A stretch of DNA of 64,000 bases from assembly GCA_900321275.1 (NCBI GenBank), contig ONVI01000005.1:19108-83107 (forward strand), in the 5' to 3' direction. This stretch comes from an uncultured Eubacteriales bacterium. Its GTDB lineage: Bacteria > Bacillota > Clostridia > Oscillospirales > Oscillospiraceae. Both the position numbers and the translations under genes were made by a program. The notes beneath the pieces were generated by a model. The model was not told the DNA's origin, made no database searches, and worked only from the letters and a program-made list of their open reading frames with translations. Shown here piece after piece: positions 2,155 to 6,773 of the stretch (the first letter of the stretch is position 1; the number at the start of each line of letters is the position of its first letter).

Positions 2155-2314
2155 GGAAACACTGCATAAATCGCCGCGCACGTATTGACGGCATCTTTTC
2201 CGCCTGCCTTTGCCTGAAAAACTTGAAATACACAAAGTATTCCTGCGCTTTTCAGGCTTCGTCAGCCGAAAATCTGCTCGCCGATCCGCACACTCCGGTT
2301 TAATCAGCGTTTCC
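2155..2314. repeat. Dispersed TIR repeat, copy A (full length)
   Basis: A 160-bp element with terminal inverted repeats: the left end reads GGAAACACTGCATAAATC, and the right end on the other strand reads GGAAACGCTGATTAAACC. The centre is a hairpin, GCCTGAAAA paired with TTTTCAGGC, enclosing GAAATAC/GTATTCC. Its reverse complement matches copy B (6616-6773) over nearly the full length. Shorter relatives are at 48874-48982 and 47243-47294. It lies in the divergent gap between the Spx/ArsC-like gene and the TetR gene. Confidence 0.85.
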
Positions 2315-2335
2315 TTATTTTACTCCTTTTGTTTC

Positions 2336-2386
2336 ATTTTGACAATGTGAAAATATGTTTTTACAAAATTGAATAATTGTGAAAAA
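2336..2386. promoter_or_regulatory. Two palindromes, candidate TetR operators
   Basis: Two related AT-rich palindromes stand in tandem. The first, 2336-2354, is ATTTTGACA-N-TGTGAAAAT. The second, 2358-2386, has arms TTTTTACAAAATT and AATTGTGAAAAA around GAAT. Both share TTTT(g/a)CA...TG(t)GAAAA. They precede a TATAAT at 2415-2420 and the TetR-type gene at 2469, which suggests autoregulation; this is inference. Confidence 0.45.
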
Positions 2387-2468
2387 CAGGACTTCCTTTT
2401 TTATGGAAATGTGCTATAATAATTAAAACATGTTGGGGTAAGCATTTGACGGACGCAGGAGGAACAAT

Positions 2469-3026
2469 ATGGCAACGTCTACGAAAAAAGCGCTTGCGGA
2501 TGCGCTGAAGAAAATGATGGTCATCAAGCCCATCGACCGCATCACCGTCAACGACCTGGTGGAGACCTGCGGCGTCAGCCGTCAGACCTTTTATTACCAT
2601 TTCGATGATGTGTACGATCTTCTTGAATGGGTCTTTGAAGAGGACGCCAACGCCAATCTTCCCAGCGAGGTTGTCTATGATAACTGGCAGCATGATGTGA
2701 CGCTCTGGTTTAAATACCTCTATGATAACTCCACCTTTGCCCTGAATGTCTATGACTCCAACAGCCGCCTGTATATGCTCCGCTATATCAAGGGCAGGCT
2801 TCGGGAGTGTATTCGGAGCTTTTCCGAAATCGTTGCGGAGAACCGCTCCATCGACCGGGCCGATTTTGAGTTTATTGTGGAGTTTTATTCCAACATCGTC
2901 GTTGGCCTGATCGCGCAGTGGATGGATCAGGGTATGCAGCTGCCCAAGGAGATCACCACGGACAGGGTGCTCAAGGTTCTCGACAACAGTATTGAAAACA
3001 TCATGGAGAGATTCCAGAAGGATTGA
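2469..3026 (+). CDS. TetR/AcrR-family regulator (DhaS type)
   Basis: A 185-residue protein whose first 55 residues form a TetR helix-turn-helix: TKKALADALKKMM, then ITVNDLVETCGVSRQTFYYHFDD, in which RQTFYYHF is the typical recognition helix. The C-terminal part is all-helical and resembles the DhaS/TetR_C_8 subfamily. The start ATG has AGGAGG six bases upstream. A TATAAT at 2415-2420 with a weak TTCCTT 16 bases before it could be its promoter. Two palindromes upstream may be its operators. No target gene is evident in the window: the next gene, ybaK, has its own promoter. The ligand is unknown. Confidence 0.85.
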   Translation: MATSTKKALADALKKMMVIKPIDRITVNDLVETCGVSRQTFYYHFDDVYDLLEWVFEEDANANLPSEVVYDNWQHDVTLWFKYLYDNSTFALNVYDSNSRLYMLRYIKGRLRECIRSFSEIVAENRSIDRADFEFIVEFYSNIVVGLIAQWMDQGMQLPKEITTDRVLKVLDNSIENIMERFQKD

Positions 3027-3041
3027 TCGAAGCGCTTAAAC

Positions 3042-3263: not shown

Positions 3264-3301
3264 CACACAGTTACGAAAAATCACGGCAGGGGGACCATGA
3301 T

Positions 3302-3778
3302 ATGGCGGAACAGAAAACAAACGTCATGCGCGTGCTTGACCAGAAAAAGATCGCCTATACCGCCCACAGCTATCCCCACGGGGACGAGGCGGTGGACGGC
3401 GTCACGGTGGCAAAGCTCACCGGGCTTGATCCCGCGCGCGTCTTCAAAACGCTGGTGACACGCGGAGCAAGCAAGAAGAACTATGTCTTTGTGATCCCCG
3501 TGGCGGAAGAACTCGACCTGAAAAAAGCGGCGAAAGCCGTGGGGGAGAAGTCCATCGCCATGATCCATGTGAGCGAGATCAACGCCCTCACCGGCTATGT
3601 GCGCGGCGGCTGCTCACCCATCGGGATGAAGAAACAGTTTGAAACCGTCTATCATGAGAGCTGTCTGCCCCTTCCGACCATGGCGGTCAGCGCGGGCAAA
3701 ATCGGCGCGCAGGTGGAGCTTGCGCCCGGCGATCTCATCAAAACCACACGCGGTAAAACCGCGGATCTTATCGTTTAG
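3302..3778 (+). CDS. ybaK: Cys-tRNA(Pro)/Cys-tRNA(Cys) deacylase YbaK
   Basis: A 158-residue protein that matches the YbaK/EbsC family along its whole length: it opens with [18 protein letters not shown], then [31 protein letters not shown], the glycine-rich [14 protein letters not shown] and the C-terminal [12 protein letters not shown]. The family edits tRNA-Pro mischarged with cysteine by substrate-assisted catalysis; the lysine in the VIPV-EELDLKK region is conserved in the family. The start ATG is preceded by GGGGG. Only ten bases separate its stop from the uvrA start, so the two are probably cotranscribed. I see nothing unusual in the protein. Confidence 0.93.
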
Positions 3779-3788
3779 GAGTATTTCT

Positions 3789-6626
3789 ATGATGCAAAAC
3801 AGCATCTTCATCAAGGGCGCGCGAGAGAACAACCTGAAAAACATCGACGTGGAGATCCCGCGCGACAAGCTGGTCGTCGTCACGGGACTGTCCGGCAGCG
3901 GGAAATCCAGTCTCGCCTTTGACACGATCTATGCCGAAGGCCAGCGACGCTATGTGGAGAGCCTGAGCTCCTACGCCCGGATGTTTCTCGGCCAGATGGA
4001 CAAGCCGGACGTGGACTATATCGAGGGCTTGTCCCCGGCCATCTCCATCGACCAGAAGACCACTTCCAAAAACCCGCGCTCCACGGTGGGCACGGTGACG
4101 GAGATTTATGACTATATGCGTCTACTCTGGGCGCGTGTCGGCGTTCCGCACTGCCCGAAGTGCGGGAAGGAGATCCGCCAGCAATCCATTGACCAGATCG
4201 TCGACCGCATTATGGCCCTGCCGCAGGGGACGAAGCTGCAGATTCTGTCTCCGGTGATCCGCGGCAAGAAGGGGGAACATGTCAAGGTTCTGGAGGACGC
4301 AAAGAAATCCGGCTACGTCCGCGCGCGTATCGACGGGATCATCTACGATCTCGGAGAAGACATCCGCCTGGAAAAGAACAAAAAGCACAATATTGAAATC
4401 GTCGTGGACCGCCTCGTGGTCAAGCCCGAAATCGTGCGCCGCCTGACGGATTCGGCGGAGACGGCGCTGGCCCTCTCCAGCGGCATCCTCTATGTGGACG
4501 CGGGCGGGGAAGAAATCCTGAGCTTTTCCCAGAACTACGCCTGTGAGGACTGCGGCATCTCGATTGAGGAGCTGGCGCCCCGCCTCTTCTCCTTCAATAA
4601 CCCCCACGGCGCCTGCCCGACCTGCACCGGCCTCGGCGTGCAGCTGTTGGTCGATCCCGAGCTCATTATGCCGAACCCCAATCTCTCCGTCATGGACGGC
4701 GGGATCGTGGCCTCCGGCTGGAACAATATCAAGGGCGATTCCATCTCCCGCATGTATTTCGAGGCGCTGGCGAAGCGCTATCATTTCAAGCTGACCGAGC
4801 CTTTGAAGGACCTTTCCAAAGAAGCCGTGGACGCCATCCTCTACGGCACAAAGGGCGAACCGCTCCAGCTCCGCTATGAACGCAGCGAAGGCTACGGTGT
4901 CATCAAGCGCGAGTTTGAGGGCATCATCAACAATCTCGAGCGCCGCTATCGCGAGACGCAGAGTCCCGCCATGCGCGCGGATATCGAGGAGTGCATGGCG
5001 GAGGTGGATTGCCCGGAGTGCCATGGCAAGCGCCTGAAAAAAACTGCCCTCGCCGTCACGGTGGGCGGGATGAGCATCGCGGATTTCGCGGATCTGTCCG
5101 TCGTGAAAGCACTGGATTTTATTGACAATCTCACGCTCAATGAAAAAGACCGCATGATCGCGGAGCGGATTTTGAAGGAGATCCGGGCGCGGCTGGGCTT
5201 TTTGACCAGCGTCGGTCTCGGCTACCTGACGCTCTCCCGCTCGGCGGCGACGCTCTCCGGCGGCGAGACGCAGCGCATCCGCCTGGCTACCCAGATCGGT
5301 TCGAGCCTGATGGGCGTCCTCTATATCCTGGACGAGCCCAGCATCGGCCTGCACCAGCGCGACAACGAGAAGCTGCTGCGGACACTCAAGCAGCTGCGCG
5401 ATCTCGGCAATACGCTGATCGTTGTGGAGCATGACGAGGAGACCATGCGCGCGGCCGACTATGTCATCGACATCGGCCCCGGCGCGGGCGTCAACGGCGG
5501 CCGTGTCGTCGCGGCGGGCTCGATCGGGGAAATCTGCGCCTGTCCGGAATCCGTCACCGGCCAATACCTGAGCGGGCGAAAGACTATCCCGGTCCCCGAC
5601 GAGAGGCGCAGGGGGAACGGGCACAGCCTGTGGATTCGCGGCGCAAGTGAGCATAATCTGAAAAACATCGACGTGGAGATCCCGCTTGGGCAGTTTGTCT
5701 GCGTAACCGGCGTGTCCGGCAGCGGGAAGTCCTCCCTGATTAACGAAGTCCTGTATAAAACCCTCGCCGCGGTCAAGAACCGGGTCAAGGTAAGGCCCGG
5801 CAGGTGCGACGGGATCGAGGGGCTTGAATTTGTGGACAAGGTCATCGCCCTGGATCAGAGTCCCATCGGGCGCACACCGCGCTCCAATCCCGCAACCTAT
5901 ACCGGCGTCTTCAACGATATCCGCGATCTCTTCGCCTCCACCCAGGACGCGAAACTGCGCGGATACAGCCAGGGCCGCTTCTCCTTCAACGTCAAGGGCG
6001 GCCGCTGCGAAGCCTGCTCCGGCGACGGACTTATCAAGGTCGAAATGCATTTTCTGCCGGACGTTTTTGTCCCCTGTGACGTCTGCGGAGGAAAGCGCTA
6101 CAACCGCGAGACGCTGGAGGTCAAGTACAAGGGCAGGAGTATTGCGGATGTTCTCGACATGACGGTGGAGGAGGCGTGCGGCTTCTTTGCCAATCAGCAG
6201 AAAATCCTCAACAAGATCCAGACGCTCTACGACGTCGGTCTCGGCTATGTGAAGCTCGGCCAGTCGAGCACCACGCTCTCCGGCGGCGAGGCGCAGCGCG
6301 TCAAGCTTGCCACCGAGCTCTCCAAGCGCTCCACGGGCTCCACGGTCTATGTGCTGGACGAGCCGACCACCGGCCTGCACATTGCGGACGTGCACCGGCT
6401 GATCAACATTCTCAACAAGCTGGTGGAGGCCGGGAACACCGTCGTGGTGATCGAGCATAATCTGGACGTCATCAAGGTGGCCGACACGATCATCGACCTC
6501 GGCCCCGAGGGCGGCGATCTCGGCGGCAATCTGGTTTTTTCCGGCACGCCCGAGGACTGCGCGGCCTGCGGGGAGAGCTTCACCGGTCAGTTTTTGAAAC
6601 CCCTGCTGGTGAAAGGGAAACGCTGA
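3789..6626 (+). CDS. uvrA: UvrABC excinuclease subunit A
   Basis: A 945-residue ATPase that recognises DNA damage and loads UvrB in nucleotide excision repair. It has two ABC modules: Walker A GLSGSGKS at residues 33-40 and GVSGSGKSS near 640, and signatures [12 protein letters not shown] and [12 protein letters not shown]. Zinc modules are visible as CPKCG, CEDCG...CPTCTG and CEACSGDG...CDVCGGKRY. The start at 3789 is chosen because TTAGGAG lies 7 bases upstream; an open frame extends back into ybaK but is overlap only. Unusually, the last codons and the TGA stop (6624-6626) lie inside the left terminus of the repeat at 6616, so the native 3' end seems to have been replaced by repeat sequence. 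Confidence 0.97.
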
Positions 6627-6773
6627 TTCAACCGACGTGTTCAGACCGAGCGGATTTTTTGTCTGACGAAGCCTGAAAAGCGATGGAATACTTTGTGTAT
6701 TTCGAGCTTTTCAGGCAAAGCCGGGCGGAAAATCCACCGTCAGGATGTGTGCGGGGATTTATTCAGCGTTTCC
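6616..6773. repeat. Dispersed TIR repeat, copy B (full length, inverted to A)
   Basis: A 158-bp element beginning GGAAACGCTGATTCAACC and ending GGATTTATTCAGCGTTTCC, with the central hairpin GCCTGAAAAG...CTTTTCAGGC around 6670-6716. It is nearly the reverse complement of copy A. The first 11 bases are the end of the uvrA coding region, including its stop. It fills most of the uvrA-recD2 gap. Confidence 0.87.

Follow-up and report, generated by a model that had tools for sequence, protein, structure and literature searches.

Miniature inverted-repeat transposable elements (MITEs) of bacteria are usually viewed as decayed fragments of insertion sequences (IS), in which the hairpins are by-products of the inverted ends. 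Several families of short repeats with structured transcripts have been described. According to the cited passages, the Correia elements (NEMIS) of Neisseria are ~155 bp long, occur in more than 100 copies, possess inverted ends and give rise to hairpin transcripts; in published cases, they undergo cleavage by RNase III and can carry promoters (PMC10969869, PMC2229807). Likewise, BOX and RUP of the pneumococcus are each described as present in more than 100 copies with base-paired RNA forms; the ends of RUP are IS630-Spn1-like, and one BOX makes a composite structure with T-boxes (PMC3049150). In Coxiella, QMITE1 and QMITE2 are reported as MITEs that yield structured small RNAs (PMC5896051). 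Here we describe a repeat of ~160 bp from a 64,000-nucleotide stretch of DNA (hereafter, the window) of an uncultured gut bacterium of the family Oscillospiraceae (contig ONVI01000005.1). This repeat resembles the Correia elements in size, copy number and inverted ends and differs from them in having a class-wide looped interior combined with several types of ends, a distinction drawn from the published description rather than from a Correia sequence. In contrast to BOX and RUP, which in the cited account occur in streptococci only (PMC3049150), the core of the repeat spans a bacterial class as well as several end types, and a covarying core common to several MITE families is not mentioned for the QMITEs in the cited part of that work (PMC5896051).

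The main point, which was absent from the interpretation in a preliminary description of the repeat, is that a conserved RNA core is common to elements with different ends. From sequence comparison, we consider it probable that the element is a non-autonomous MITE, ~160 bp long, with a conserved structured RNA encoded on one of its strands. The two full-length copies in the window, copy A (160 bp, positions 2155..2314, RNA strand minus) and copy B (158 bp, 6616..6773, RNA strand plus), are, as originally noted, inverted copies of each other, with 81.4% identity across 161 columns of the pairwise alignment (E 3e-39), and share termini of the GGAAACGCTGA type and a central GCCTGAAAA hairpin. The 18-bp end, with up to 3 mismatches, has 7 matches in the window compared to 0.13 expected. 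An RNA model of the core matches copy A at 2192-2276 on the minus strand (80.8 bits) and copy B at 6652-6736 on the plus strand (72.1 bits). The core hairpin P1 can be read directly in the sequence of both copies, at 2225..2243 on the minus strand in copy A (GGAATAC-TTTGT-GTATTTC) and at 6685..6703 on the plus strand in copy B. We denote as R the strand that reads GGAATACTTTGTGTATTTC.

The interior shows the behaviour of a structured RNA. When 65 divergent copies were scanned for covariation without an alignment, helix P2 ranked top, and pairs of the outer helix P3 were detected as well, also without supervision. Among 52 aligned copies, paired cells amount to 83.0%, compared to 64.1% in shuffled alignments, cells with changes on both sides number 267 compared to 99.7, and the covariation score is 0.481 compared to 0.163, values reached in none of the 500 shuffles; all three measures drop when the partners are slid by 1-3 columns. 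P2 alone has 86.0% of the cells paired vs 53.5% after shuffling, 132 double-change cells vs 41.3, and a score of 0.758 vs 0.205. Both P2 and P3 lie outside the search pattern, which fixes most of the letters of P1 and a part of CAAG, so that the conservation of P1 and CAAG in the loci collected with this pattern stems partly from the selection of these loci. Paired changes in P1 include GGAATAC/GTATTTC, GCAATAC/GTATTGC, GTAATAC/GTATTAC and GATGTAC/GTACATC. The unpaired blocks AAGGC, GCA, CAAG and AACG are kept, and outside the searched pattern, few letters are as conserved as those of the internal loops; in more distant relatives, the hairpin mostly retains UAC/GUA around a variable loop. RNAalifold, when run on wide MAFFT alignments, recovered the core and one flanking helix only.

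Such an interior could be retained because it is useful to the host in cis, with the copies serving as leaders, terminators or RNase-processing sites of the neighbour genes, an explanation that we consider rather unlikely. The locations of copies A and B are compatible with this possibility, with an ArsC-like gene's ribosome-binding site next to copy A and the gap between uvrA and recD2 occupied by copy B, and in syntenic copies from three genomes (L048, L071 and L173), the interior is almost unchanged, with the outer arms diverged. Another syntenic, core-bearing pair from two genomes (L112 and L150) differs by two paired double changes, but the ends of these two copies are different as well, and they may be two separate insertions. 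Private mutations, counted in 44 copies, are less frequent in the core (18 across 53 columns) than in the remainder (77 across 108; p 0.003), which hints that selection acts after insertion; however, this test is weakened because the copies came from core-based searches, and it fails when restricted to G/C non-CpG columns (p 0.21). Furthermore, the orientation of the element relative to genes is unbiased: the upstream gene is located on the R strand in 59 cases and on the opposite strand in 53, and the downstream gene in 64 and 55 cases, respectively, in a count that relied on crude calling of open reading frames (ORFs) and excluded the 46 of 184 copies located within a called ORF. Because of this lack of bias, our guess is that any effect of the loops and the hairpin is an element-level or trans-acting one rather than a cis effect on neighbour genes.

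The two strands differ in how well they fold. Copy B folds at -76.2 kcal/mol on R compared to -58.0 on the complement. Once one and the same cap is substituted for the core hairpin, R is the better-folding strand in 62 of the 65 divergent copies (mean -14.3 kcal/mol); with the arms shortened, this is true of 59 of 65. After shuffling of each arm, the figure is -5.6, and 58 of the 65 copies have an observed value below the shuffled one. G-U pairs in the minimum-energy structures number 305 on R compared to 116 on the complement. The strand preference bears on the suggestion that the interior is a DNA-level site, that is, a cruciform or a single-strand DNA hairpin acting as the target of a host protein or of a second recombinase. 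The orientation-neutral intergenic placement and the near-palindromic core would suit such a site, and G-T pairs are tolerable in single-strand DNA, but no strand preference is expected from a cruciform because both strands extrude, whereas the preference for R, in terms of RNA energies, goes beyond that of shuffled arms. We therefore regard this suggestion as improbable.

Paired changes can also arise without selection. Long imperfect palindromes are known substrates of quasi-palindrome correction, whereby one arm is rewritten from the other by repair that switches strands, and this process would also account for the ends staying inverted during a change of class. Nevertheless, it is a very unlikely source of the covariation reported here given that correction would erase mismatched internal loops, yet these are highly conserved outside the searched pattern, and would produce perfect pairs, not an excess of G-U pairs on one strand.

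Having weighed these explanations, we return to the MITE with a conserved RNA interior, which can be traced through the host genome (assembly of 2.74 Mb in 101 contigs). The 18-bp end, with up to 2 mismatches, has 154 matches in this assembly compared to 0 for the reversed pattern, and the RNA model has 97 matches at E<=0.01; BLASTN with copy A also revealed further copies, 40 of them BLAST-scored out of 121 candidates. The surroundings were inspected for 87 copies (86 from among the 97 model matches, plus one extra copy found on the way), and 18 of these were not assigned to an end class. Class 1, with ends of the GGAAACGCTGA type, comprises 45 interior-bearing copies with both ends, mostly 160-162 bp long, in accord with the usual description of MITEs (shorter than 400 bp, inverted ends, many copies). 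Identical 4-bp flanks are present in 18 of the 45, compared to 2.9 with the right flanks shuffled; for flank widths of 2, 3, 5 and 6 bp, the respective counts are 5, 6, 0 and 0 vs 2.9, 3.0, 0.1 and 0.0. Class 2 (GGCAAYACCGCA) includes 14 interior-bearing copies, 12 of which have matching exact 4-bp flanks (4.9 after shuffling). The first automatic end finder, which mixed the classes and often misplaced the ends, yielded exact duplications in 26 of 151 cases (control, 4 of 604).

The same interior is framed by unrelated ends in other elements. Class 3 (CTATTATCCGATAAGGC) consists of 10 interior-bearing copies in the host genome, all 10 with TA on both sides, although shuffling also yields 10/10, and the TA may belong to the ends. 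Class 4 (TACTAACTTTCAATAAAAACAAGAC) is represented by one RNA-model match, at 31.6 bits and with a degenerate P1 hairpin, and by a similar stretch in L018 that was recognized by eye. In the genomes of relatives, further end classes surround the interior, and 22 of the 36 other genomes of the same genus match copy A, many of them over the centre only, within elements with differing ends and arms. The presence of the core in elements with quite different ends suggests an unrecognised RNA travelling on several kinds of transposons. Among nearest-neighbour interiors, the end class is shared in 70 of 107 cases, with 60 more copies unclassified, so that frequent end swapping is neither proven nor excluded. 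Separately, class-1 copies nested within class-4 (IS630-type) ends were observed in L007, L009, L018 and L335; the TTAG/CTAA letters of class 4 suit the 4-bp target.

IS5-group elements favour YTAR targets. A match to DDE_Tnp_1, the domain of IS5-type transposases, was detected in 22 of the 61 genomes of the genus. In sister species, two candidates for the autonomous partner were identified, both with TTAA flanks: L179 (1,223 bp) has class-1 ends and L176 (1,135 bp) has class-2 ends, and their transposases score 295 and 327 bits, respectively, in the NCBIfam IS5 model NF033581 (transpos_IS5_4; cut-off 140). The end motif is also found on one or both sides of L181 (class 1) and of L177, L180 and L183 (class 2). 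For class 4, the candidate partner is L371, a putative IS630-type locus on contig C100 of the host genome with the same ends and TA flanks; its protein is split between two frames, and the two pieces score 66.2 and 84.6 bits with the IS630 model NF033545, whose cut-off of 100 neither attains. A candidate autonomous partner with matching ends is available for classes 1, 2 and 4, and we infer that transposases of the IS5 and IS630 types move the element in trans. The likeness to IS5-family elements lies in the class-1 and class-2 ends and the 4-bp duplication, which agree with L179 and L176; unlike these partners, which encode an IS5-family DDE transposase, the repeat is non-coding, and it is a passenger of IS5 rather than a member of that family.

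No RNA-model match to the interior was found in any of the 45 transposase loci examined, so a derivation of the interior from a partner IS, which is common among MITEs although not required, is not observed. An ordinary MITE, that is, an internally deleted IS5-type element with a functionless interior and a hairpin that is a by-product of the inverted ends, would explain the ends, length, target duplications and IS5 partners as well as the occurrence of core-deleted copies (copy C in the window and end pairs 46-82 bp apart) but not the interior itself, which covaries, keeps its loops, prefers one strand and ranges across a class, nor its presence in TA-flanked elements with unrelated ends, and this already disfavoured explanation has, in our view, only a slim chance of being correct.

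Several observations weigh against a mobile element with a selected RNA interior. No DDE_Tnp_1 (IS5-type) gene was found in the host genome, and no class-3 partner among 15 DDE_3 loci. The structure was derived from the same sequences on which covariation was counted, and the tally of pairs that show at least one double change is non-discriminating (20 vs 19.1 in shuffled alignments, reached in 174 of 500 shuffles, and 17-20 with slid partners). Column-wise counts of G-U, set against A-C, do not exceed those in shuffles (78 vs 80.1 for P3) or fall below them (16 vs 42.3 for P2), which implies that part of the strand bias comes from composition. No conserved promoter was recognised by eye, with no dedicated scan made. 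The unbiased gene orientation, the class-3 TA flanks reproduced by shuffling and the single, degenerate class-4 match belong on the same side of the balance.

With these points taken into account, we infer that the interior is maintained by selection, most likely on a transcribed RNA that would benefit either the element or the host. In the scenario we propose, the element would insert into intergenic DNA and be transcribed, either through read-through or from a promoter nearby; the RNA of the R strand would then fold almost end to end, and the conserved internal loops (AAGGC / GCA..CAAG / AACG), together with the UAC-loop-GUA hairpin, might be recognised by a protein or processed. A broader proposal, which we put forward only tentatively and would not yet bet on, is that the mobile unit is a new RNA family itself, in which a structured RNA common to the class Clostridia has taken on, time and again, terminal repeats from unrelated transposases of the IS5 and IS630 types while its fold was kept, and either works in trans or has been put to use by hosts. 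If a strand-specific, covarying core indeed resides in differently ended elements across a bacterial class, it would represent a mobile RNA family, and functional-RNA cargo of short non-coding transposons would become directly testable.

The range of the core is broad. At E<=0.001, the RNA model has hits in 93 genomes out of 245 in the order, which represent 51 of 127 genera, and in 61 out of 291 in the class, which represent 44 of 181 genera; by their listed kinship, 54 of these 61 are outside the order. A phylum-wide draw of 299 genomes yielded 4 with matches at E<=0.0001: the host genome, a second member of its family, and two others that each have a single match. Such a low number indicates that the model rarely fires by chance. 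A scan of named genome contigs with the core pattern returned at least 117 stretches; the titles among the listed matches are Oscillospiraceae, Ruminococcaceae, Clostridia and similar, mostly metagenome-assembled genomes. The interior model can be used to label currently unannotated intergenic repeats in gut and rumen genomes. In the open-licence full-text literature searched, no description of the element was found, and neither of two 15-letter core strings is present. A phage- or plasmid-borne element was considered and rejected: copy A has no match in plasmids and a relative's copy none in phages, and the core pattern occurs in one viral contig. The element is not a known Rfam RNA either, as Rfam 15 at gathering scores gives only RNase P in the window, and in 14 relative loci, no match with E<=1 overlaps the core. 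An intrinsic terminator was dismissed by eye, as the repeat has no U-run and is not rich in G+C. In L053, a sub-threshold T-box match (1635-1847; 48 bits, gathering 93) adjoins a core-bearing element.

The preliminary description had proposed a non-autonomous mobile element, and this is supported by the 4-bp duplications (18 of 45 in class 1, vs 2.9), by the IS5-family elements with the same ends and by empty sites in relatives. The uvrA-recD2 region was compared in 28 relatives with both flanks found, among the best 29 relative loci (60 of the 61 genomes matched, host included). In 23 of the 28, the spacer is 4-56 bp long, compared to 185 bp in the window, so that the site is empty. Longer spacers are present in the other five relatives; four of these (164-390 bp) have no RNA-model match, and the fifth, of 183 bp in G022, contains a separate, core-bearing insertion in the opposite orientation, with GTAAACG-type ends and TTGA on both sides. 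At the site of copy A, between the arsC and tetR genes, the 4 relatives with both flanks (of 19 relative loci) all have an empty site, with 152-161 bp compared to 328 and no model match. Thus, neither A nor B is fixed at the same locus in all relatives, and further copies exist. The claim of active or recent mobility is moderately supported: the best full-length match to copy A in the host genome is 94% identical, and copy A lacks a target duplication, whereas copy B is flanked by AAAG on the left (6612..6615) and on the right (6774..6777).

Four copies had been reported in the window; the repeat is real, but the actual tally is two full copies, one gutted and one half. Copy C (109 bp, 48874..48982, plus strand), identified by end matches and pairwise comparison, retains both ends with the core deleted and is located between a ribulose-phosphate epimerase gene and dapA; copy D, found in the same way, consists of the right half only (47243..47294, plus) and lies between the RNase J gene and recR. 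The association of all copies with repair or RNA-processing genes does not hold, and repair-gene targeting was discarded: the Pfam neighbours, which include the ArsC-like and TetR genes around copy A and the epimerase gene and dapA around copy C, show no such pattern, uvrA and recD2 next to copy B notwithstanding. The statement that the copies have no coding content is nearly right, except that the uvrA reading frame ends at 6626, its stop codon (6624..6626, plus) lying within the left terminal repeat of copy B. Elsewhere, the site shared by L112 and L150 adjoins, by eye, a typA-like gene.

Core-less mini-elements consisting of class-1 end pairs, 46-82 bp overall, are also present in the host genome (G000), at C54:131688-131735, C58:31447-31494, C65:15352-15397, C25:18639-18720 and C68:13489-13570. 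In the window, at 48738-48800, there is a small inverted-end pair, TTGATGTGCC...GGCACATCAA, of ~60 bp overall, with ends like those of a core-bearing element in L144; it may represent one more end class, here lacking the core. Longer multi-hairpin stretches, in L269, L270 and L273, resemble tandem or nested relatives of the element. Finally, positions 32700-33048 of the window, on the minus strand, encode a bacterial RNase P RNA of class A (Rfam).

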